DNA of 64,000 bases. Source: Aeromicrobium sp. Root344 (GTDB taxonomy: Bacteria; Actinomycetota; Actinomycetes; Propionibacteriales; Nocardioidaceae). Where the stretch lies: positions 2,452,167 to 2,516,166 of the forward strand of contig NZ_LMDH01000001.1 in assembly GCF_001425755.1 (NCBI RefSeq), in the 5' to 3' direction. Both the position numbers and the translations under genes were made by a program. Below, in pieces: positions 50,877 to 63,016 of this stretch; position 1 is the first letter of the stretch, and each line of letters starts with the position of its first letter. The notes beneath the pieces were generated by a model that searched no databases, was not told where the DNA came from, and saw nothing but the letters and a program-made list of their open reading frames with translations.

Positions 50877-51549
50877 CGCCGATGTAGTGCACGATGAACG
50901 CCGCGATCGTGAACGCGTGGAAGATCTCGTGGAAGCCGAAGTACTTGGGCGAGGGGTCGGGCCACTTGAAGCCGTAGACCACGGCGCCGAGCGAGTAGAG
51001 CGCTCCGCCCGTGATGAGCAGCACCAGGACCGCGGTCGACGCGTTGTCGACGAACTCGGGGAAGTAGAGCACCGCCGCCCAGCCCAGCAGCAGGTAGAGC
51101 GGGACGTACAGCCACCGCGGAGCGCCGATCCAGAAGATCTTGAACGCGACACCGAGCAGCGCGCCGCCCCACACGAGCGAGAGCATGATCGCCGCGTGCT
51201 GCTTCGACAGCAGGAGCAGCGAGAACGGGGTGTAGGAGCCGGCGATGAGCAAGAAGATGTTGGCGTGGTCGAAGCGTTTCCAGAAACCCTTGACGCGGTC
51301 GTTCCAGGTGCCCCGGTGATAGACCGCGCTGACGCCGAACAACAGCATCGAGCTGACCATGAACACCGCGACACCGACGCGCACCAGGAAGTCGTCGGAG
51401 ATGACCAGCATCACGATGAACGCGAAGAACGCCAGGGGCAGCGTGATGGCGTGCAGCCACCCGCGGAGCTTGGGCTTGATCTCGTCGACGGTCTCGCGGA
51501 TCCGATCGGTTGCCTCGTGCACGATGCCCTCGGGCTGCCGGTCGGTCAT
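50848..51549 (-). CDS. trhA: Hemolysin III/PAQR-family membrane protein
   Basis: 233 aa, seven helices. The PAQR motifs are seen as FGVSAVYHRG, FDHANIFLLIAGSYTPF and the C-terminal FGFHEIFHAFTIAAFIVHYIGV, which hold the His/Asp/Ser zinc site. The family includes the YqfA/TrhA proteins that affect membrane lipid balance. ATG at 51547-51549 lies 6 bases after TACGCT (leaderless). Divergent from the isoprenyl transferase. Confidence 0.9.
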
Positions 51550-51577
51550 GCGCACAGCGTAGTGCGTGGCCGGGTAC

Positions 51578-51583
51578 TACTCT
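51578..51583 (+). promoter_or_regulatory. -10 element of the isoprenyl transferase
   Basis: TACTCT ends 7 bases before the ATG at 51591; leaderless pattern. Confidence 0.5.
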
Positions 51584-51590
51584 GGCCCGC

Positions 51591-52352
51591 ATGGGAGTCA
51601 GCGACCTCGCGTACGGCGTGTATGAGCGGCGTCTCGTCAAGAGCCTCGATCCCGCCCGGCTCCCACACCACGTCGGGGCGATCGTCGACGGCAACCGGCG
51701 CTGGGCGAAGGGCGCCGGCACGCGGTTCGAGCACGGCTATCAGGCTGGTGCCGACAAGATCTCGGAGTTCGCCCAGTGGTGTGACGAGCTGGGTGTGGAG
51801 ATCGTCACGCTGTGGCTCCTGTCGACCGACAACCTGCAGCGCTCGCCCGAGGAGGTCGGCAGCATCCTCGCCGCCGTCGAGGGCTTGATGGAGAAGCTGT
51901 CGGCCGAGCAGCGCTGGTCGCTGGCGGTCATCGGCAACCTCGACATGCTGCCCGACGAGTCGGCCGGGCGGATGAAGCGGCTCGCCGACTCGACCTCGAA
52001 CGTCAAGGGCATGCGGGTCAACATCTGCGTCGGCTACGGCGGTCGCCAGGAGCTCACCGACGCGATGCGTTCGCTGCTGCTCGACCAGGCGTCCAAGGGC
52101 CGCAGCCTCGCCGACGTGGCCGAGACCCTCGAGGTCGACGACATCGCCGAGCACCTCTACACCAAGGGCCAGCCCGACCCCGACCTCGTGATCCGTACGT
52201 CGGGGGAGCAGCGGCTGTCGGGCTTCCTGCTGTGGCAGAGCGTGCACTCGGAGTTCTACTTCAGCGACGCCCTGTGGCCGGCGTTCCGGCACGTCGACTT
52301 CCTCCGCGCGATGCGCTCGTACGCCGCAAGGGAGCGAAGGTTCGGCCAGTAG
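51591..52352 (+). CDS. Cis-isoprenyl diphosphate synthase (short Z-type)
   Basis: 253 aa. Cis-prenyltransferase: VDGNRRWAKG is the pyrophosphate-binding motif, TLWLLSTDNLQRSPEE the substrate loop, and DLVIRTSGEQRLSGFLLWQ the second binding region. By its neighbourhood (next to hemolysin III and DUF255 genes, as mycobacterial Rv1086), it is probably the short-chain Z-farnesyl diphosphate synthase rather than the undecaprenyl enzyme. The product feeds decaprenyl or undecaprenyl carriers. Confidence 0.88.
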   Translation: MGVSDLAYGVYERRLVKSLDPARLPHHVGAIVDGNRRWAKGAGTRFEHGYQAGADKISEFAQWCDELGVEIVTLWLLSTDNLQRSPEEVGSILAAVEGLMEKLSAEQRWSLAVIGNLDMLPDESAGRMKRLADSTSNVKGMRVNICVGYGGRQELTDAMRSLLLDQASKGRSLADVAETLEVDDIAEHLYTKGQPDPDLVIRTSGEQRLSGFLLWQSVHSEFYFSDALWPAFRHVDFLRAMRSYAARERRFGQ

Positions 52353-52614: not shown

Positions 52615-53943
52615 GTGGCCGCAACGCGCACGAAGAAGCCGAGCACGAGCCCTGTCCGCCGCACGTACGTCCTGGACACCAGCGTCCTGCTCGCGGACCC
52701 CAACGCGGTCAACCGCTTCCACGAGCACGAGGTCGTCATACCCGTTGTGGTGATCACCGAGCTCGAGGGCAAGCGGCACGACCCGGAGCTCGGCTACTTC
52801 GCCCGCAGCGCGCTGCGCTTCCTCGACGACCTGCGGGTGCTGCACGGCACCCTCGACGTGCCGCTGCCCATCGGCGACGAGGGCGGCACGATCCGTGTCG
52901 AGCTCAACCACACCGACTCGTCGTCGCTGCCGTCGGGCTTCCGCCTCGGCGACAACGACACCCGCATCCTGTCGGTCGCCAAGAATCTCGCCGACGAGGG
53001 CAACGACGTCACGATCGTCTCCAAGGATCTGCCGATGCGGGTCAAGGCGTCGGCGGTCGGCCTGATTGCCGAGGAGTACCGCGCCGAGCTGGCGCTCGAG
53101 TCCGGCTGGACCGGCATGCGCGAGCTCGAGGTCGAGAGCATCGACCTCGACACGCTCTACGAGGGCGGCACGCTCGACCTGCCCGAGGCGCGGGACCTGC
53201 CGTGCCACACGGGCCTGGTGCTGCTGTCCGACAAGGGCAGCGGACTCGGCCGGGTCACCGCCGACAAGGAAGTGCAGCTCGTACGCGGCGACCGTGATGC
53301 GTTCGGCATCCACGGCCGGTCGGCCGAGCAGCGGGTCGCGCTCGACCTCTTGCTCGATCCCGACATCGGCATCGTGTCGCTCGGCGGCCGCGCCGGCACC
53401 GGCAAGTCGGCCCTCGCGCTGTGCGCCGGGCTCGAGGCGACGATGGAGCGCGGCCAGCACAAGAAGGTCGTGATCTTCCGCCCCCTCTACGCCGTCGGCG
53501 GCCAGGAGCTGGGCTACCTGCCGGGCAGCGAGTCCGAGAAGATGGGTCCCTGGGGCCAGGCGGTGTTCGACACGCTCGGCGCGGTCGCCTCACCTGCGGT
53601 CATCGAGGAGATCCTCGACCGCGGGATGCTCGAGGTGCTGCCGTTGACGCACATCCGCGGCCGCTCGCTCCACGACTCCTACGTCATCGTCGACGAGGCC
53701 CAGTCGCTCGAGCGCAACGTCCTGCTGACGGTGCTCTCGCGCATCGGCGCCAACTCCAAGGTCGTCCTCACGCACGACGTCGCCCAGCGCGACAACCTGC
53801 GGGTCGGCCGCCACGACGGTGTCGTCGCCGTGGTCGAGAAGCTCAAGGGCCACCCGCTGTTCGCCCACGTCACGCTGACCCGCTCGGAGCGCTCGCCCGT
53901 CGCCGCGCTGGTCACCGAAATGCTGGAGGACGTCACCTTGTAG
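52615..53943 (+). CDS. phoH2: PhoH2-type PIN-PhoH ATPase/RNase
   Basis: 442 aa, GTG at 52615 behind GAGGAG. N-terminal PIN nuclease domain ([15 protein letters not shown] with the acid D21, [22 protein letters not shown]) and C-terminal PhoH ATPase (Walker [11 protein letters not shown] near 258-266, Walker B-like YVIVDEAQS). Mycobacterial PhoH2 is a sequence-dependent RNA helicase/RNase preceded by a small antitoxin-like gene; none is seen here. fumC follows further on, as in mycobacteria. Confidence 0.92.
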
Positions 53944-54053: not shown

Positions 54054-55331
54054 GTGCTCGGGGCCAGGTGGATGCGGCGACGCCCCGACCCGGCCGAGTC
54101 GCCGTGGCGATTCACCGACTTCAACGTTCTGTTCCGCTCCGCCAGCCTGAGCCAGCTCGCCAGCAACACCGGCTACGTCGCACTCCCTCTGATCGCCGTC
54201 ACGGCTCTGCGCGCGGGCCCCGCCGAGGTCGGTGCGCTCGCCGCGCTCAGCACGGCGGCGTTCCTGCTGATCGGGCTTCCGGTCGGCGCGTGGGTCGATC
54301 GCACTCGGCACCGCCAGGTGCTGATCGTCGCCGACGTCGCCCGAGCGGTCCTGTTCGCCACGATCCCCGTCGCGTGGTGGCTGGACTCCCTCACGATGCA
54401 GCAGCTGTACGCCGTGGCGTTCGCAAGCGGCGCGGCGACGGTGTTCTTCGACGTCGGATCGCAGAGCGTGCTGCCCCGCATCGTCGGGCCGGCGGCGCTC
54501 GTGCGGGCCAACGCCGCGATCGTCACGATGATCGCGCTGGCCAACGTCGCCGGGCGTGGTGCGGGCGGGGCGCTGGTCCAGCTGCTGACCGCGCCCGTGG
54601 CTGCGTTGTGCTCCGCGATCGCCTACCTGCTGTCGGCCGTCACGCTCACCCGGATGACTCGGGTGCCGCGTGCACCGGCCGGCACGGAGGCCCGGCCCCG
54701 CCTCGGGGTCCAGATCGTGGAGGGCCTGCGCCACGTCCTGGGGCACGCGGAGCTGCGCGCCCTCGCGTTGACCGCGACGCTCAACAACCTCGGCAGCCAG
54801 GTCATCAACACGATGCTGCCGATCCTGTTCGTCCGCGGTCTCGACCTGCCGGCCGGCGCGCTCGGCACCTTCTGGGCGGCCGGCGGCGCGGGCCTGCTCA
54901 TCGGAGCACGCTGTGCCTTGCCGACGGCGCGACGGCTGGGGTACGGCCGCAACCTCGCGCTGATCGGGCTCTGCGTCGCACCCGCCGCCCTGCTCGTGCC
55001 CCTGGTCGACCGGGGTCCGTTGCTGTGGCTCGCCGGCGCCGGCTGGACCCTGGCGCTCTGCAAGACCGGGATGGACAACGTCGTCGGGGTGAGCCTGCGG
55101 CAGCGGATGACCCCGCCGGCGCTCGTCGGCCGGATGAACGCCACGTTCCGCTTCCTGCTGACCGGGGCCCTGGCCCTCGGCGCCGTCCTTGGAGGTGTGC
55201 TCGGCGAGCTCATCGGCGTCCGCGGGACCCTCTGGGTGGGCGCGGTGATCCTCGCGCTGGCGTTCGTCCCGGTCTTCGTGTCGCCCGTCCGCCGACGCCG
55301 CGAGCTGCCCACAGCGCTGGCTGTGACGTGA
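54054..55331 (+). CDS. MFS transporter (MFS_3/EntS type)
   Basis: 425 aa, 10-12 helices. GAWVDRTRHRQVLIVADVARAVL is the A-like loop between helices 2 and 3, and RVRANAAIVT-like (PAALVRANAAIV) and MTPPALVGRMNATFRFL motifs are typical of the group that exports siderophores or macrolides. GTG at 54054; a strong hairpin follows the stop. Substrate unknown. It separates phoH2 from the sugar-transport operon. Confidence 0.85.
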   Translation: MLGARWMRRRPDPAESPWRFTDFNVLFRSASLSQLASNTGYVALPLIAVTALRAGPAEVGALAALSTAAFLLIGLPVGAWVDRTRHRQVLIVADVARAVLFATIPVAWWLDSLTMQQLYAVAFASGAATVFFDVGSQSVLPRIVGPAALVRANAAIVTMIALANVAGRGAGGALVQLLTAPVAALCSAIAYLLSAVTLTRMTRVPRAPAGTEARPRLGVQIVEGLRHVLGHAELRALALTATLNNLGSQVINTMLPILFVRGLDLPAGALGTFWAAGGAGLLIGARCALPTARRLGYGRNLALIGLCVAPAALLVPLVDRGPLLWLAGAGWTLALCKTGMDNVVGVSLRQRMTPPALVGRMNATFRFLLTGALALGAVLGGVLGELIGVRGTLWVGAVILALAFVPVFVSPVRRRRELPTALAVT

Positions 55332-55405: not shown

Positions 55406-56647
55406 GTGAGCGCACCAGGGAGGGTATGGGCACGCGTGGGCGCCGCTGCCCTGCTGTGCGTCCTCGCTGCCTGCGGGTCGGCCGGCACCAAGCCCGGCGG
55501 GACCCCCACGCTCACCTGGTACGTCGGCCCGGATCGCGCCGACACCGCGGCCCTCGCGCGTACGTGCACCGAGGCGGCCAAGGGTGCCTACGACATCAAG
55601 GTCCAGCAGCTGCCGACCGATGTCGACGCGCGGCACGCCCTCCTCGTCCGCCGGCTGGTCGCCAAGGACACGTCGATCGACCTGTTGAGCCTCGACTCGG
55701 CGTTCACCGCCGAGTTCGCCGCCGCCGGGTTCCTCGCGCCGCTGCCCGAGGAGCTCAAGGCGCCCTTTGCGCAGGACATCGCGCCGGCTGCGCTCGCGGC
55801 TGCGACGTACGACGGCCAGCTCGCCGTGGCGCCGTGGTGGTTCGACCCGCAGCTGCTCTGGTATCGCGGCAACGTCGCCGAGCGGGCCGGTCTCGACACG
55901 ACCAAGCCCATCAGCTGGGACGACCTCGTCGCGGGCGCGGAGCGGCTCGGCGTGACGATCCAGATCGCCGACGACGACGGCTCGGGGCTGGCGCAGTGGG
56001 TCAACGCGCTGGTCAAGGGTGCGGGCGGCTCACTCGTCGACGGCGCGGGTCGCCGCGCCAAGGTCGGTCTCGACACCGCAGCCGGACGAGCCGCCGCTTC
56101 GGTCGTCGAGTTCTACCTCGAGTCCGGGGGAGCCGGGCCGTCGAAGGACGCGCTCAAGAAGTTCGCCGGCGCCGAGGGCGGATTCCTGCTGGCCCCGAGC
56201 TCGGTCATCGCCGACCGGGACCTCGCCGCGGTGGCCTCGGACCTGTCGTGGACGGCCTATCCCACGGTCGCCGACACCAGCGTCGCGCCGCTGTCCGGTG
56301 TCGGCCTCGCGGTGCCGCTCTACGCCCCGCACACCGACCTGTCGTACCAGGCGATCAGCTGCTTGACGTCGCCCGCCGTGCTCACCTCGATCATGGCGAG
56401 CACCGGCCACAGCGCGAGCCGCCTCACGACGTACGACGACCCGGCGGTCAAGCGGGCCTATCCGCTGGCCGCGGTGACCCGTCCTGCCGTGCTCTCGGGC
56501 GCGACGCTGCCCGTGACGCCCTACTGGCAGGTCGCGGAGCAGGCGCTCGACGACACGTGGTTGCCGCTGCGGGACTTCTCGCAGGACACGACGCTCGAGC
56601 ACTCGCAGAAGGCCGTACGCGCCGCGATCCGAGGGCAGCTCCGGTGA
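55406..56647 (+). CDS. Extracellular solute-binding lipoprotein
   Basis: 413 aa, GTG at 55406. Signal peptide with lipobox LAAC (Cys near 23); mature domain opens TLTWYVGPDRADTAALA, with SIDLLSLDSAFTAEFAAAGFLAPL and APWWFDPQLLWYRGNVAERAGL. It is a family 1 (LpqY/MalE-like) binding protein, probably for a sugar or trehalose-like compound. First of five overlapping genes (ABC import). Confidence 0.88.
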   Translation: MSAPGRVWARVGAAALLCVLAACGSAGTKPGGTPTLTWYVGPDRADTAALARTCTEAAKGAYDIKVQQLPTDVDARHALLVRRLVAKDTSIDLLSLDSAFTAEFAAAGFLAPLPEELKAPFAQDIAPAALAAATYDGQLAVAPWWFDPQLLWYRGNVAERAGLDTTKPISWDDLVAGAERLGVTIQIADDDGSGLAQWVNALVKGAGGSLVDGAGRRAKVGLDTAAGRAAASVVEFYLESGGAGPSKDALKKFAGAEGGFLLAPSSVIADRDLAAVASDLSWTAYPTVADTSVAPLSGVGLAVPLYAPHTDLSYQAISCLTSPAVLTSIMASTGHSASRLTTYDDPAVKRAYPLAAVTRPAVLSGATLPVTPYWQVAEQALDDTWLPLRDFSQDTTLEHSQKAVRAAIRGQLR

Positions 56648-57465
56648 AGGGCTGGCGCTGGCTCGCCCTGCCGTTCGCGGTCCTGCTGACGATCACAGGC
56701 TGGCCGATCGGGCGCGGCATCTGGCTGTCGCTGCACTCCGCTCCGCTGACGAACCCCGACGACCGTACGTTCGTGGGCGCCGACAACTACACCGACGTGC
56801 TGACCAACCGAGGTTGGTGGCTCGCGGTCGCCACGACTCTCGTGATCGTCCTGGCCGTCGTGATCCTGCAGCTGCTCGTCGGTCTGGTGTTCGCCGTGGC
56901 GCTGCGGCGGCTCACGTTCCTGTGGCCGGTGACCCGCATCATCGTGCTGATCCCGTTCGCCCTGCTCGCGGTCGTGTCGGCCGTCGTGTGGCGCGACGCC
57001 GTCACGACCGGGTTCGCGGCCGAGTGGTTCCGTCTCGACGACGTTGGGCCGTTCGGCCAGCTCGTCGGTGTCACGGTCGGTGAGCTCTGGCGCGGCACCG
57101 GCATCACGGCCCTGATCCTGCTCGCCGGGCTGCTGCGGGTCCCGAGCTCGCTCATGGCGTCCGCCATCGCCGACGGCGCCACCGCCTGGCAGCGCTCACG
57201 ACGTGTGGTCCTCCCGGCGATGGGTCCGGCGATCGCGGTCGCCGCGACCTATCGCGGCCTCGACACCTTCCGCATCCTCGAGGGGCCACTGCTGGTCGAC
57301 CGGCCCGGCGCCACGATCCGCACCGCACCGCTGCTGGTCTGGGACACGACGTTCTCGTCGCTCGAGCTCGGTCTCGGCGCCGCGATGTCGATGGTCCTGC
57401 TGGTCATCGCGTTGCTGATGGGCGCGATCATGGTGCCGTTGTTCCGTGTGAGGAGGGTCGTGTGA
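56644..57465 (+). CDS. ABC sugar permease (MalF/SugA type)
   Basis: 273 aa, GTG overlapping the previous stop. Six helices; the cytoplasmic EAA-type loop ASAIADGATAWQRSRRVVLP (near 180-199), where the ATPase docks, is retained. Shorter than many MalF homologues. Partner of the following permease. Confidence 0.88.
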   Translation: MKGWRWLALPFAVLLTITGWPIGRGIWLSLHSAPLTNPDDRTFVGADNYTDVLTNRGWWLAVATTLVIVLAVVILQLLVGLVFAVALRRLTFLWPVTRIIVLIPFALLAVVSAVVWRDAVTTGFAAEWFRLDDVGPFGQLVGVTVGELWRGTGITALILLAGLLRVPSSLMASAIADGATAWQRSRRVVLPAMGPAIAVAATYRGLDTFRILEGPLLVDRPGATIRTAPLLVWDTTFSSLELGLGAAMSMVLLVIALLMGAIMVPLFRVRRVV

Positions 57466-58442
57466 CGCCCTCCGTACGCTCGCGCCTCTGGGCCTCGGGC
57501 TTCGCGTTCGTCCTGGGCTTCGCGGTGGCCAACTACGGCATCATCCGGGTCGCCCGGCCCGACCTGTGGATCTGGGTCGGCCTCGCGGTCGTCCTGATGG
57601 TCACGAGCGCTGCCGGGGTGCTGTTCGCCGACACCTCGCGACCGCTGTCGATCTGGTCGATCATCGGCATCGAGCTGTTCGCGGTGTTCACCCTCGTGCC
57701 GCTGCTCTGGACGTTCACCGTGGCGACCGCGCCGGACGGCACCACCCCGCGATCGGTGTGGCCGCAGGACATCTCGTGGGACGCGTTCGACGGCGCGCTG
57801 CACTCGCAGATCCTGCAGGACGCCGCGGTCACCTCGGTCGTGGTCGCCGGCATCGCCACCGCCGTCGCGATGCCGCTGGCGATCGCCGCCGCATACGCCT
57901 TCGTGCGCCAGCCGATGCGGGGGCGCCGTGCGGCGTACGGGCTGGTCGTGGCGACGCTCCTGATCCCGCTGCTGGCGCTGGCGGGGCCGATCACCGACCA
58001 GGTCATCGCCGCCGACAGGTTCGGCAGCCGGATGTCTCTCGTCCCGCCGGCGCTGCTCATCACGCTGCCGCTGGCGATCTGGCTGTGCGTCACGGTGTTC
58101 CGCGACGTGCCGTGGTCGCTGCGCGACGCGGTGCGTGCCGACGGGGCCACCTGGCTGCAGGCATTCGTACGCTTCGGGCTGCCCAACGTCGCGCCGGGCG
58201 TCGCCCTCGCGACGGCGCTGGTCTTCGTGGCCGGCTGCAACGACTTCGTCCTCGGCGCCGCGCTCTCGGCCAACGACGAGTCGCGGCCGCTGCCGGCCAC
58301 CCTGATGCTCGCGACGGGCCAGCTCGAGACCTCGAGCTCCGCCGTCGCCGCGGCCGGGCTGCTGTGGCTCGCGCCGGTCGTCCTCCTGCTGCTCGTGTTC
58401 CCGCGCCGGATCACTCAACTCCTGGGAAGGTCGTACCGATGA
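57462..58442 (+). CDS. ABC sugar permease (MalG/SugB type)
   Basis: 326 aa, GTG overlapping the previous stop. An added N-terminal helix pair (~10-55) comes before six core helices; the docking loop RDAVRADGATWLQAFVRFGLP (near 223-243) is intact. LVFVAGCNDFVLGAAL near the end fits the MalG type. Confidence 0.88.
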   Translation: MTPSVRSRLWASGFAFVLGFAVANYGIIRVARPDLWIWVGLAVVLMVTSAAGVLFADTSRPLSIWSIIGIELFAVFTLVPLLWTFTVATAPDGTTPRSVWPQDISWDAFDGALHSQILQDAAVTSVVVAGIATAVAMPLAIAAAYAFVRQPMRGRRAAYGLVVATLLIPLLALAGPITDQVIAADRFGSRMSLVPPALLITLPLAIWLCVTVFRDVPWSLRDAVRADGATWLQAFVRFGLPNVAPGVALATALVFVAGCNDFVLGAALSANDESRPLPATLMLATGQLETSSSAVAAAGLLWLAPVVLLLLVFPRRITQLLGRSYR

Positions 58443-59605
58443 CCTCGATCGAAGTCCGCAACCTCACGACGTCCGGCACGGGTGATCGCCCGCTGCTCGA
58501 CGACATCAACCTCACGGTGCCGTCGGGTGAGACGCTGGCGCTCACGGGTCCGTCGGGTGCGGGCAAGAGCCTGCTGCTCAAGACCCTCATCGGCCTCGAG
58601 GAGCAGACCTCCGGCGACATCCTGATCGACGACGTCGTGGTCAACACCGCCGATCCGCGTCGACGTGACCTCGCGATGGTGTTCCAGGACTACGCCCTGC
58701 ACCCGCACCTCGACGTGTTCGACAACCTCGCGTTCGCGGCGACCCTGCGTCGCGGCTACAACCGAGGCGAGCTGTCGGAGCGCATCCACGAGGTGGCCGA
58801 CCTGCTGGCCCTCGGTGAGCTGCTCGACCTCAAGCCCGCCGAGCTCGACGACGCACAGCGCCAGCGCGTCGCCCTGGGCCGCTTGCTCGTGCGCGACGCC
58901 AAGGCGTACCTGCTGGATGCCCCGTTCTCGCAGCAGTCCGAGCGCGTGCGCACGCAGGTCCGCTCGGTCACCAGCCAGTGGCAGCAGGAGAACAAGCGCA
59001 CCTCGATCTTCACGACCAACGACGTCGCGGAGGCGCTCAGCACCGCCGACCGGGTCGCCGTGATGCACCAAGGGTTCATCCACCAGGTCGGCACGCCGCG
59101 AGATCTCTACGAACGGCCCGCCGACATGTTCGTCGCCGGCTACCTCGGCTCGCCGCCGATGAACCTCGTGCCGGCGTTCCCGATGGGGCGCCAGCTCGTC
59201 ATGCCCCTGGCCACGATGCTGCTCGACGACCACCTGCTGGAGCGCATCGGCGAGCGCGGTGTCGTCGTCGCCGGCATCCGGCCCGAGCACTGCTACGACG
59301 CGACGGGTCACGGTGGCCAGGCGGTCACCGACCGGGTCGAGTTCACGACCCGCATCGACGACGTGGAGTGGCGCGGCAGCAGCCAGTTCGCCTACCTCGG
59401 CTACGACATCGCGCCCGAGGTCGAGGAGCTGCTCAACGAGGTCGAGGACCTGCTCGAGTTCGACCTGTTCCAGAGCTTCCTGGTCGCCGAGCTCGCCGCC
59501 GAGAGCACGCTGCGACCGGGCATGTCGATCCGGGTCGTCATCCCGCGCCAGAGGGTGCACGTGTTCGACCCCGAGACGGGTGAGAACCTCACGCTCGCCC
59601 GATGA
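58439..59605 (+). CDS. MalK/SugC-like ABC protein with degenerate ATPase motifs
   Basis: 388 aa. Walker A GPSGAGKS (37-44) and Q83 are normal. The rest is altered: signature LSGGQ is LDDAQ (136-140), the catalytic Glu after Walker B is Ala (LLDAP, A161), the D-loop is FSQQSER, and the switch His is Asn (TTND, N194). The C-terminal 150 residues keep a MalK-type OB/TOBE region (VAGIRPEHCYD and IRVVIPRQRVHVF). It should bind ATP but barely hydrolyse it. Overlaps both neighbours. Confidence 0.87.
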   Translation: MTSIEVRNLTTSGTGDRPLLDDINLTVPSGETLALTGPSGAGKSLLLKTLIGLEEQTSGDILIDDVVVNTADPRRRDLAMVFQDYALHPHLDVFDNLAFAATLRRGYNRGELSERIHEVADLLALGELLDLKPAELDDAQRQRVALGRLLVRDAKAYLLDAPFSQQSERVRTQVRSVTSQWQQENKRTSIFTTNDVAEALSTADRVAVMHQGFIHQVGTPRDLYERPADMFVAGYLGSPPMNLVPAFPMGRQLVMPLATMLLDDHLLERIGERGVVVAGIRPEHCYDATGHGGQAVTDRVEFTTRIDDVEWRGSSQFAYLGYDIAPEVEELLNEVEDLLEFDLFQSFLVAELAAESTLRPGMSIRVVIPRQRVHVFDPETGENLTLAR

Positions 59606-60933
59606 CGGGGTCCACTCGCGGCCAGCGGCTGATCGCCGGGCTGCTCGCCGTCGCTGTAGGCGCGGCGTACGGCGTGCTGACGCTGATGCGCTATCGCCGG
59701 TTCACGATCTCGTCGTGGGACCACGCGATCTTCGAGCAGGCGGTCAAGGGCTATGCCCGGCCTGGCGCGCCGATCGTCGACGTCAAGGCGCCGGGGTTCA
59801 ACATCCTCGGCGACCACTTCTCGCCGATCGATGCGCTGATCGCGCCCTTCTACCGGGTCTTTCCGTCAGCGCAGACGATCCTGCTGGCGCAGGTCGTGCT
59901 GATCGCGGTCTCCGTGGCGGTGATCGCCCTCGTCGCGATGCGGCACGTCGGCACGCTGACCGGCGCGGTGATCGGCCTCGCGTACGGGTTGTCGTTCGGG
60001 CTCCAGTCCGGGGTCGAGGCGGAGTTCCACGAGGTGGCGTTCGGCGCTCCTCTGCTGGCACTGGCCGGTGCGGCGTACGTCGACCGGCGGTTCCGGGCTG
60101 TCGTGCTGTGGTCGCTGCCGTTGCTGCTGGTCAAGGAGGACCTCGGACTGACGGTCGCGATGATCGGCGGCGTGCTGTGGCTCGCGGGGGAGCGGCGCCG
60201 CGGCGTGCAGCTCGCCGCGACCGGGCTCATCGCGATGGCGTTCATCGTGCTGGTCATCGTGCCGTCGTTCAACCCCGGCGACTCGTACGCCTACACGTCA
60301 TCGCTCGGCGGTGATCGCGGGATCGTCGCGACGCTGCTCGACGACCCTGACCGCAAGCTGGGCACGGTGGCGCTGACGGTCGGGATCACCGGGCTCGCGG
60401 CGCTGGTGTCGCCCTGGGTGCTGCTCGTGCTGCCGACGTTCGCGTGGCGGTTCGCCGGAGACAACGCGTACTACTGGGGCACCGAGTGGCACTACTCGCT
60501 GCTGCTCATGCCGATCGTCTTCATCGCGATGGTCGACGGGATGCGCCGGTGGCCGGTGCTGCGGTGGGCGACGGTCGCGGCGGTCGTCGTCACCGGGTTC
60601 ACGCTGGTCAGCTCGCCGCTCTCGACGCTGCTCGACTCCGAGACGTACGACGAGCCGCCACGTGCGACCGCCGCCCACGCGGTCATCGCCGCGGTGCCGA
60701 AGGGCGCGACCGTCGAGACCGACATCGCGATGATGAGCCATCTCGTCACCGACCACACCGTCTACTGGTGGGGCACGATCGGCAAGCAGGTCACTCCGTC
60801 GTACGTGCTGTTCGACGCCGCTGCCGGCATCGACTCACCCGTCGACGTCGTCGCGTACGCCGAGGAGGCCCACGGTGGGACGTACGACCTGGTGTTCAAC
60901 CGCGACGGCTACGTCCTCGCCAAACGCCGCTGA
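59602..60933 (+). CDS. DUF2079-family membrane protein
   Basis: 443 aa, ATG overlapping the ABC gene. About ten helices in residues 10-350 with conserved WDHAIFEQAVKGYARPGAPIVDVKAPGF and LGDHFSPIDALIAPFYRVFPSAQT motifs after helix 1, like DUF2079 (GT-C-fold-like) proteins, and a C-terminal outer domain (VETDIAMMSHLVTDHTVYWWGT). Role unknown; its coupling to sugar import suggests envelope glycan work. Confidence 0.82.
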   Translation: MTGSTRGQRLIAGLLAVAVGAAYGVLTLMRYRRFTISSWDHAIFEQAVKGYARPGAPIVDVKAPGFNILGDHFSPIDALIAPFYRVFPSAQTILLAQVVLIAVSVAVIALVAMRHVGTLTGAVIGLAYGLSFGLQSGVEAEFHEVAFGAPLLALAGAAYVDRRFRAVVLWSLPLLLVKEDLGLTVAMIGGVLWLAGERRRGVQLAATGLIAMAFIVLVIVPSFNPGDSYAYTSSLGGDRGIVATLLDDPDRKLGTVALTVGITGLAALVSPWVLLVLPTFAWRFAGDNAYYWGTEWHYSLLLMPIVFIAMVDGMRRWPVLRWATVAAVVVTGFTLVSSPLSTLLDSETYDEPPRATAAHAVIAAVPKGATVETDIAMMSHLVTDHTVYWWGTIGKQVTPSYVLFDAAAGIDSPVDVVAYAEEAHGGTYDLVFNRDGYVLAKRR

Positions 60934-60939
60934 GCCGGC

Positions 60940-62325
60940 TCAGGGGTGCGTCATGGACATGACGTCGAGCGCCTTATCCAGGTCCGCCTCGCTGATCTCG
61001 CCGCGCTCGACGAAGCCCATCTCGACGACGACCTGACGGATCGTCTTCTTCTCCTTGACCGACGTCTTGGCGACCTTGGCCGCGTTCTCGTAGCCGATGA
61101 ACCGGTTGAGCGGCGTGACGACCGACGGCGACGACTCGGCGAGCTCGAGGCAGCGCTCCTCGTTGGCCGTGATGCCGTCGATGCAGCGGTCGGCGAGCAC
61201 GCGCGACGCGTTGCCGAGCAGGCGCATCGACTCGAGGATGTTGCGGCCGATGACCGGCAGCATGACGTTGAGCTCGAACGACCCGGAGGCGCCGGCGGTG
61301 GCGATCGTCGCGTCGTTGCCGATGACCTGGGCGGCGACCATGAGCGTCGCCTCGGGCAGGACCGGGTTGACCTTGCCCGGCATGATGCTCGAGCCGGGCT
61401 GCAGGTCGGGGAGGGCGATCTCGCCGAGACCCGTGCGCGGGCCCGAACCCATCCAGCGCAGGTCGTTGCAGATTTTGGTGAGGCTGACCGCGATCGTGCG
61501 GAGCTGGCCCGACATCTCGACGAGGCCGTCGCGTGCGCTCTGCGCCTCGAAGTGGTCAGTGGCCTCGGTGATCGGCAGGCCGGTGTTGTCCGCGAGGATC
61601 TCGATGACCCGCTGGGGGAAGCCGATCGGCGTGTTGATGCCCGTGCCGACCGCCGTGCCGCCGAGGGGGACCTCGGCCGTACGCGGGAGGGAGGCCTCGA
61701 CGCGCTCGATGCCGCGGCGGATCTGCGCCGCGTAGCCGCCGAACTCCTGGCCCAGCGTGACCGGGGTGGCGTCCATGAGGTGCGTACGGCCGGACTTCAC
61801 GACGCTCGCGAACTCCTTGGCCTTGGCCTCGAGCGAGGTGGCGAGGTGGTCGAGCGCGGGGATCAGCTCGTTGGTCGCCGACGCGGTGGCGGCGACGTGG
61901 ATCGAGGTGGGGAAGACGTCGTTGGACGACTGGCTGGCGTTGACGTGGTCGTTGGGGTGCACGTCCTTGCCGAGCGACTTCGTGGCCAGGGTCGCGAGGA
62001 CCTCGTTGGTGTTCATGTTGCTCGACGTGCCGGAGCCGGTCTGGAACACGTCGATGGGGAACTGCGCGTCGTGGGCACCGGAGGCGACTTCCTCGGCCGC
62101 GGCGACGATCGCGTCGGCGATGTCCTGGTCGAGGATGCCGAGCTCGGCGTTGGCCTTGGCGCAGGCGGCCTTGATCTGGGCCAGGGCGCGGATCTGCGCG
62201 GGCTCGATCGGGGTGCCGGAGATCGGGAAGTTCTCGACGGCGCGCTGGGTCTGGGCTCGCCAGAGGGCGTCGGCGGGGACGCGGACCTCGCCCATGGTGT
62301 CGTGCTCGATGCGGTATTCGGTCAT
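60940..62325 (-). CDS. fumC: Fumarate hydratase, class II
   Basis: 461 aa. Hydrates fumarate to malate in the citric acid cycle without an iron-sulfur cluster. [12 protein letters not shown] is the superfamily signature with the catalytic serine loop, [14 protein letters not shown] and [16 protein letters not shown] are substrate loops. ATG at 62323-62325 is 7 bases after TATCGT (leaderless). Convergent with the DUF2079 gene. Confidence 0.94.
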
Positions 62326-62374
62326 GCTTCCGACGATATCGCTGCGGTGTCGACGCGTATCGGGCAGGCGTGGG

Positions 62375-63016
62375 TCAGAACGCGGAGACCGAGCCGGGCG
62401 CACGTTGTGGCCGGCTCAGGGTGCGTACGACCGCCGCCTGGCCGTGCCTGCGCATCGCGACGCCGCCGAGCAGGTCGACCACGTGCGCGGCGACCGTGCC
62501 GGGGAACTCCGGCGTCGGGAGCCCGACGCTCGCGGCGAGGTCGTCGGAGTGCACCATCAGCTCCATCGACCGGGTGACGAGGAAGTCGTCGGTCGTGAGC
62601 GCCCAGCCCTGCCACGGGATGAAGATCGTGTCGGGGTCACGCGGCGTGCGCAGCAGGTCGGGCAGCTGGTCGAGCAGCGGCGCAACCTCCGCGAGCACCG
62701 CGTCGCGTCCCGCCCGGGCTGCCTCGTTGCCCTCGTCGCGGATCGAGGTGTTGGCCTCGTCCTCGGGACGTGCGGTCACCCACTCGGCCCCCGCGTAGTG
62801 GTCGAGCAGCGGGATCGGGTCGTCGGTCGTCGGCGGCTGCGCCAGGAACCGCGCCGCGTGCTTGACCTGCGCGAGCAGGTGGTGCGCCAGCCCGCCGACG
62901 GTCATCCCGGCACACGCGCTCTCGGCTTCCCACGACTCGGCGACCTCAGGGCGCTCGGCCAGCCGGTAGGCGATGTGGCCGGCGTCGACGAACTCGGTGC
63001 GATCCAACGGCTGCAT
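62375..63016 (-). CDS. Maleylpyruvate-isomerase-like mycothiol-dependent protein
   Basis: 213 aa, ATG at 63014-63016, 7 bases after TAACGT (leaderless). DinB-fold helical protein: [21 protein letters not shown] carries the first metal His, and [17 protein letters not shown] the C-terminal ligands, as in mycothiol-dependent maleylpyruvate isomerase family members. The reaction here is unknown. Confidence 0.8.

Follow-up and report, generated by a model that had tools for sequence, protein, structure and literature searches.

ATP-binding cassette (ABC) importers are usually defined by ATP hydrolysis. Then, what does such an importer do once its motor has gone? This can be asked directly at a locus of Aeromicrobium sp. 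Root344, whose genome is a single contig; a stretch of 64,000 nucleotides of it was analysed (contig NZ_LMDH01000001.1, positions 2,452,167 to 2,516,166 of the forward strand; hereinafter the window). It carries a block of five genes, in which each adjoining pair overlaps by 4 bases. The subunit set of the LpqY-SugABC type, that is, homologues of a solute-binding protein (SBP), two permeases and a MalK-type ATPase, is present in one operon, and a gene for a DUF2079 protein follows. Judged from the sequences, this is an LpqY-SugABC-type operon whose ATPase (hereinafter the pseudo-ATPase) is without the hydrolysis motifs throughout the genus, and whose predicted ligand pocket is unlike that of LpqY. 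The genes of the block, in window coordinates, are as follows.

55406-56647, + strand: lipoprotein SBP; Pfam SBP_bac_1, 56.9 bits; closest solved relatives LpqY
56644-57465, + strand: permease 1, SugA/UgpA/MalF-like; GTG start assumed; BPD_transp_1, 21.3 bits, under the cut-off of 26.4
57462-58442, + strand: permease 2, SugB/MalG-like, with an N-terminal extension; BPD_transp_1, 38.3 bits, over the cut-off
58439-59605, + strand: pseudo-ATPase, SugC/MalK-like nucleotide-binding domain (NBD); 388 aa, ATG start, without internal stop
59602-60933, + strand: DUF2079 membrane protein; Pfam DUF2079, 170 bits

The NCBIfam matches of permease 1 (UgpA/GlcT-like) are also under the cut-off, and the protein aligns to canonical SugA-like proteins. 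The block contains one NBD gene; no second, complementary NBD was found in it, a result that is firm for the window only.

An ATPase without hydrolysis motifs

The preliminary description of this DNA had claimed that the ATPase has lost the LSGGQ signature, the catalytic Glu, the D-loop and the switch His, while Walker A and Q83 are kept, and all of this is confirmed in the 388-aa open reading frame. Walker A (GPSGAGKS, 37-44) and Q83 are present. LDDAQ (136-140) stands where LSGGQ is expected, Ala161 follows the Walker B Asp160 (YLLDAP) in place of the catalytic Glu, the D-loop reads SQQSE, and Asn194 (TTND) replaces the switch His. The A-loop Tyr13 has also been replaced, by Gly, which is an additional loss beyond those described earlier. 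The closest solved relative is SugC (E 9.7e-97), and positions 1-385 are aligned by profile A2 to SugC of 8ja7; the OB_MalK domain scores 24.0 bits, below the cut-off of 27. The best NCBIfam matches are UgpC and MalK, so that annotation based on family profiles would label the pseudo-ATPase a sugar importer ATPase. Note that its structure model, built on an alignment of five sequences, has a pLDDT of 33 and supports no claim.

An ATPase of this type (E<=1e-105) was found in 32 of the 49 Aeromicrobium genomes, and in 24/37 among those of good quality, the matches in Aeromicrobium records being 83-98% identical to the window protein, with A. ginsengisoli at 98%. When the orthologues are aligned over the motif positions, as had been suggested, the losses prove to be fixed in the genus: all 32 copies are without LSGGQ, the D-loop Asp, the switch His and the A-loop Tyr. 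The catalytic Glu is retained in 5/32, all five of them without signature and His, and position 161 drifts among Ala, Asp, Ser and Glu. Walker A Lys43 is retained in 27/32 and is Arg in the other five, whose genes are still intact. The Walker B Asp is retained in 31/32, and Q83 is retained in 20 and lost in 12. If the signature is counted as kept with 4 of its 5 letters, the pseudo copies keep 1 (5 copies), 2 (5), 3 (20) or 4 (2) of 8 hallmarks. All eight are kept in 43/43 canonical SugC-like relatives, a set from which the intermediate copy L204 (see below) and five divergent second-locus copies (L219-L223) had been dropped before counting. Sequencing error or a strain-specific mutation is ruled out by the losses shared among 32 genomes. 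Orthologues with normal motifs, which the preliminary description had named as a sign of such a mutation, do exist outside the genus and number 0/32 within it. The near copies L031-L034 agree on the motifs; they come from the same assemblies as G010, G041, G037 and G044 and hence are not independent. Newly fixed among the pseudo copies are Gln166 (in the former D-loop), Arg312, Gly321 and an FDLFQxF stretch at 341-347, and the conserved residues gained in the C-terminal part comprise R312, G321, E336 and FDLFQxF.

The operon's permease 2 was found in the same 32 genomes, and the other 17 are without both permease 2 and the NBD. Based on the window proteins as queries with one best match each, the SBP, permease 1, permease 2, pseudo-ATPase and DUF2079 genes stand together at 31/31 fetched loci as well as in the window. 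The importer genes are kept or lost as one block. Two syntenic landmarks bound it:

52615-53943, + strand: upstream landmark, which we take from its sequence, without a family search, to be a PhoH-like protein (phoH)
60940-62403, - strand: downstream landmark, presumably a FumC-like fumarase (fumC)

The phoH gene is upstream in 28/31 fetched block loci and outside the fetched stretch in L157, L158 and L186, while fumC is downstream in 29/31, with L171 and L172 ending at or near contig ends.

Binding protein and permeases

A phmmer search relates the SBP to the LpqY chains 7cae, 7ape and 8ja7 (E 1.9e-36 to 4.8e-33), and the closest solved relatives of a canonical SBP from a sister genus (L206) are likewise LpqY. 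An excerpt of PMC7949145 gives N134, E241, W259 and R404 as critical trehalose contacts of LpqY. Compared with the contacts listed in that excerpt, the equivalents of N134, E241 and W259 are present in 0/32 SBPs of the pseudo operons versus 8/8 canonical SBPs at the phoH locus, the E241 column, which borders a deletion, being the least certain of the pocket alignments. The R404 equivalent, from the same list, is present in 26/32, and most of the other canonical SBPs in the comparison are without it. The equivalents of D80 (30/32) and G334 (32/32) are largely kept, and a lipobox is present in 32/32. The window SBP follows this pattern: the lipobox and the D80, G334 and R404 equivalents are kept, and those of N134, E241 and W259 are lost.

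The permeases were said in the preliminary description to have intact docking loops, which is wrong. In permease 1, the Glu of the EAA motif is kept in 2/32 and is otherwise Ala (17), Asp (10), Arg (2) or Thr (1). In canonical permease 1 the position is Glu in 43/48 and Lys in 5, the comparison set (n=48) including the five divergent second-locus copies mentioned above. The loops of permease 2 are altered as well, being of DAV/DSI type in the pseudo operons and QAA in 41/48 canonical relatives. In the window the two positions read ASA and DAV, respectively. Loss of an EAA Glu in both permeases was considered and ruled out, because canonical permease 2 has QAA, so that only permease 1 is affected. 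The loop Gly is invariant (32/32) in both permeases, and residues 78-104, which make up the docking side of the pseudo-ATPase, are better conserved than the protein on average (column entropy 0.66 vs. 0.95). Therefore, the parts of the importer, as far as such conservation can tell, probably still assemble, with re-shaped contacts. Compared with LpqY-SugABC of mycobacteria (PDB 8ja7, 7cae and 7ape), which has the same subunit set and provides the closest solved ATPase (SugC) and SBP (LpqY), the Aeromicrobium system has thus lost the ATPase motifs, three pocket residues (32/32) and the permease 1 EAA Glu (30/32).

Selective constraint

The ratio of nonsynonymous to synonymous substitution rates (dN/dS, Nei-Gojobori) of the pseudo-ATPase is 0.052-0.180 over 16 species pairs, and in 12/16 the four other genes all have higher values. 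The pairs, picked because they are close, include 19/32 copies and depend on one another. Canonical SugC-like ATPases give 0.081-0.170 over 7 pairs, and the N-terminal ATPase-like core of the pseudo copies alone gives 0.015-0.199. The frames of all four importer genes are open in 32/32; one flagged internal stop (L160) is the natural end of the gene. All four importer genes are under purifying selection. The earlier proposal that a non-hydrolysing subunit has been selected for, and is not decaying, is supported by these values together with the genus-wide conserved loss. Mean column entropy is 0.90 in the core and 1.03 in the C-terminal part of the pseudo copies, compared with 0.46 and 1.38 in the canonical copies, a comparison that is only indicative, since the canonical set is taxonomically wider.

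Origin of the block

In a family search with permease 2 over 341 genomes, relatives outside the genus match from the first residues of the N-terminal extension, and other permeases match only from about residue 54-68. Eight loci in three sister genera (L205-L212) have the genes for SBP, permease 1, permease 2 and ATPase beside phoH, with DUF2079 next in 7/8. Based on the shared position, gene order and permease 2 extension, this operon of the sister Nocardioidaceae is probably orthologous to the Aeromicrobium block. It differs in its ATPases, whose motifs are canonical in 8/8 (L205 reads MSGGQ). Since sister genera carry a syntenic canonical operon, the motor most likely died in the Aeromicrobium lineage, as far as the sequences indicate.

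An intermediate was found in L204, from another genus (G065, with 8% contamination and an unsure genus label). Its ATPase has LSESE, Asp for the catalytic Glu and Gly for the switch His, with TLD kept; its permease 1 keeps EAA and its SBP pocket is already changed. Trees were built from 18/32 pseudo copies, L204, the 8 canonical phoH-locus copies, 14 second-locus copies and 13 other rows, and rooted at the midpoint. In the NBD and permease 2 trees the 18 pseudo copies group with L204 in a single clade, supported at 100/100 and on a long stem, while a quick version of the permease 1 tree places L204 apart from the other pseudo copies, with long branches flagged. Across 391 genomes searched within the order, pseudo-type ATPases (E <= 2.3e-182) occur in Aeromicrobium only, among the matches listed, which do not include G065; the next matches, at 1.3e-122 and weaker, include canonical phoH-locus copies. 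A natural series is available at one locus, from the canonical form in sister genera through the intermediate L204 to the genus-wide dead form and a sub-clade without the Walker A Lys, with all genes intact.

The DUF2079 gene

The DUF2079 gene is present in 48/49 genomes of the genus, including 16/17 without the importer. In the 14 importer-less genomes fetched its neighbours are phoH and/or fumC, and importer genes were not found next to it. Because DUF2079 occurs both near canonical importers (7/8 sister loci) and without any importer (16/17 genomes), the phoH-DUF2079 neighbourhood, read from gene order, probably predates the loss of the ATPase motifs. How many times the importer was lost can be estimated from a quick DUF2079 tree, which needs 2 changes, only 1 of them forced by strongly supported branches; 14/16 importer-less DUF2079 genomes were fetched for it and two truncated DUF2079 rows (L171, L172) were dropped. 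No sequence relatives of the DUF2079 protein were found in PDB (best E 0.15). Its model, of low confidence (pLDDT 53, pTM 0.51), matches GT-C glycosyltransferases (Foldseek, VIA-align), and on this model it looks like a GT-C glycosyltransferase. A literature search of open-licence PubMed Central gave no paper holding the word DUF2079 among the matches listed.

Other ATPases that could power the permeases

The preliminary description had proposed that the permeases may be powered by a shared MsiK/SugC-like ATPase encoded elsewhere and had called for a search for an orphan MsiK-like ATPase. One was indeed found in the same genome (L238:7509-8603:-), its nearest permease pair lying about 3 kb off on the other strand. 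The genome also has a canonical SugC-like ATPase with its own permeases (L224), at least five permease pairs (L233-L237) without a neighbouring ATPase, each beside a lipoprotein-like open reading frame (by eye), and a sixth pair without an ATPase match nearby (G000:C1:2562442-2563862). With an orphan MsiK-like ATPase and permease pairs lacking ATPases, a shared motor is therefore possible in this genome.

Among the 32 pseudo-bearing genomes, 12 were searched for SugC/MsiK-type ATPases. SugC copies at >=85% identity occur in 9/12, the genome of Root344 included, and G024 has an MsiK-like ATPase without a SugC copy. In G011 and G013, no SugC/MsiK-type ATPase was found besides the pseudo one, the strongest 8 of 57 other ABC matches having been classified. 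Both genomes are single contigs, 99 and 98% complete, respectively, with the whole block present. Among the eight (5 from G011, 3 from G013), two CysA-type (L258, L259) and one PotA-type (L257) are over the cut-off, and the remaining five are below every cut-off, with PotA/PhnT/ProV-like best matches. The OB_MalK domain, present in SugC and MsiK, was found in none of the eight. A promiscuous motor of another family may nevertheless serve in G011 and G013. Consequently, the part of the earlier proposal that concerns an orphan ATPase stands, and the idea that it drives these permeases is weakened by G011 and G013 and by the loss of the permease 1 EAA Glu.

What could the importer do without its motor?

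From the motifs we infer that the complex would no longer pump by ATP hydrolysis. Judged from the conservation described above, it is most likely a neofunctionalised LpqY-SugABC relative that works without ATP hydrolysis and signals via the regulatory domain of the pseudo-ATPase. We put at roughly one half the probability that it is an importer turned into a ligand-responsive receptor or regulatory scaffold, with the pseudo-ATPase as its output. In such a system, the lipoprotein would capture a ligand, other than trehalose if the contacts of LpqY are a guide, and then dock on both permeases, from which a shape change would travel to the pseudo-ATPase via the docking region. The C-terminal part of the pseudo-ATPase, with R312, G321, E336 and FDLFQxF, would relay the signal to a putative cytosolic or membrane partner. 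The role of ATP binding may differ between clades, as the Walker A Lys is kept in 27 copies and lost in five. A fuller version, in which a complete type I ABC importer has become a hydrolysis-independent receptor, with a new ligand sensed, the permeases as a signal-passing hinge, the dead ATPase as output and a nucleotide-free state in the clade without Lys43, is more tentative, and we would lean somewhat against it as a whole. MalK regulates MalT and is a target of EIIA, which is a precedent for the C-terminal domain of MalK as a signalling surface; unlike the pseudo-ATPase, MalK is an active ATPase.

Several observations weigh against the receptor or scaffold. The Walker A Lys and the Walker B Asp are kept in 27/32 and 31/32, respectively, and a cycle driven by nucleotide binding may thus persist. 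Of the 12 pseudo-bearing genomes tested, 10 have a canonical ATPase that could power the permeases there, SugC-like in nine and MsiK-like in G024. Of the 30 permease 1 Glu losses, 10 are to Asp. The block is dispensable, being absent from 17/49 genomes of the genus (13/37 of good quality). The trees do not place the phoH-locus canonical copies as sister of the pseudo clade, the taxonomic breadth of the canonical set limits the entropy comparison, and the proposed signalling partner of the pseudo-ATPase is putative.

The retained nucleotide-binding residues, Q83 (20/32) among them, would suit a gated facilitator or slow pump, switched by nucleotide binding without hydrolysis or by very slow hydrolysis. 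Such a device is rather unlikely, given that none of the 32 copies has the A-loop Tyr or LSGGQ and that five copies have Arg for Lys43 in intact genes. If an MsiK-like or SugC ATPase encoded elsewhere were the motor, the pseudo-ATPase could be a regulator or place-holder, and both the orphan ATPase with its unpaired permeases and the SugC copies in 9/12 tested genomes would be accounted for. According to an excerpt of PMC7658222, multitask ATPases that serve several importers are established. The likeness to MsiK/MsmX-type importers in the orphan ATPase and ATPase-less permease pairs goes along with two differences: the operon studied here retains a gene for a dead ATPase, and no shared ATPase was found in G011 and G013. 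The permease 1 Glu is also lost (30/32), and the pseudo-ATPase would presumably compete for the same docking sites. On balance a shared motor is unlikely, though it ranks next after the receptor or scaffold.

A mixed motor would join a pseudo-ATPase to an active subunit of the SugC type, much like ABC transporters in which one of the two sites is degenerate, and would fit the 27 copies with the Walker A Lys and the SugC copies of the nine genomes. In degenerate ABC heterodimers the losses leave one good site. ABC exporters of that kind have an NBD from which signature residues and the catalytic Glu are likewise missing, and they keep one working site, whereas here the operon's only NBD gene is without both halves: signature and His are both lost (Glu too in 27/32), so that both composite sites would be defective. 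With no SugC-type partner found in G011 or G013 either, we regard a mixed motor as very improbable. A scaffold or regulator devoted to the DUF2079 protein (a putative glycosyltransferase) encoded downstream draws on the presence of DUF2079 downstream at 32/32 loci and on the predicted GT-C fold. A scaffold for the DUF2079 protein had also been raised in the preliminary description. This reading is weak, because DUF2079 persists in 16/17 importer-less genomes and lies near canonical importers in 7/8 sister loci, and we hold it to be quite improbable. Finally, a decaying importer heading for loss might explain why the block is missing in 17/49 genomes and why catalytic positions drift between copies; it is rejected on dN/dS, with the ATPase the most constrained gene in 12 of the 16 pairs and every frame open, and is scarcely credible.

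Because the dead motor is still conserved, the locus suggests that a machine for uptake has been put to another use, perhaps sensing. Among the best matches listed in open-licence PubMed Central, no paper was found that describes this locus or a bacterial importer with a dead ATPase as its only one.

Neighbouring genes

In L205 and L206, an extra gene lies between the canonical ATPase and DUF2079; its product, about 230 aa long, has a hydrophobic stretch at the N-terminal end, and there is no room for it at the 32 Aeromicrobium loci. At L187 and L188, which belong to the importer-less genomes G001 and G015, two genes named by eye take the place of the importer between phoH and DUF2079, one membrane-enzyme-like (490 aa) and one for a PadR-like regulator. 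The window has, at 51510-52352 and thus upstream of phoH, what is presumably a cis-prenyltransferase-like gene. Between phoH and the block, the window contains an MFS-like transporter gene (54054-55331, named by eye). It is probably a recent neighbour of the block, since it is present in only 2/31 fetched loci of the genus (L157, L158).

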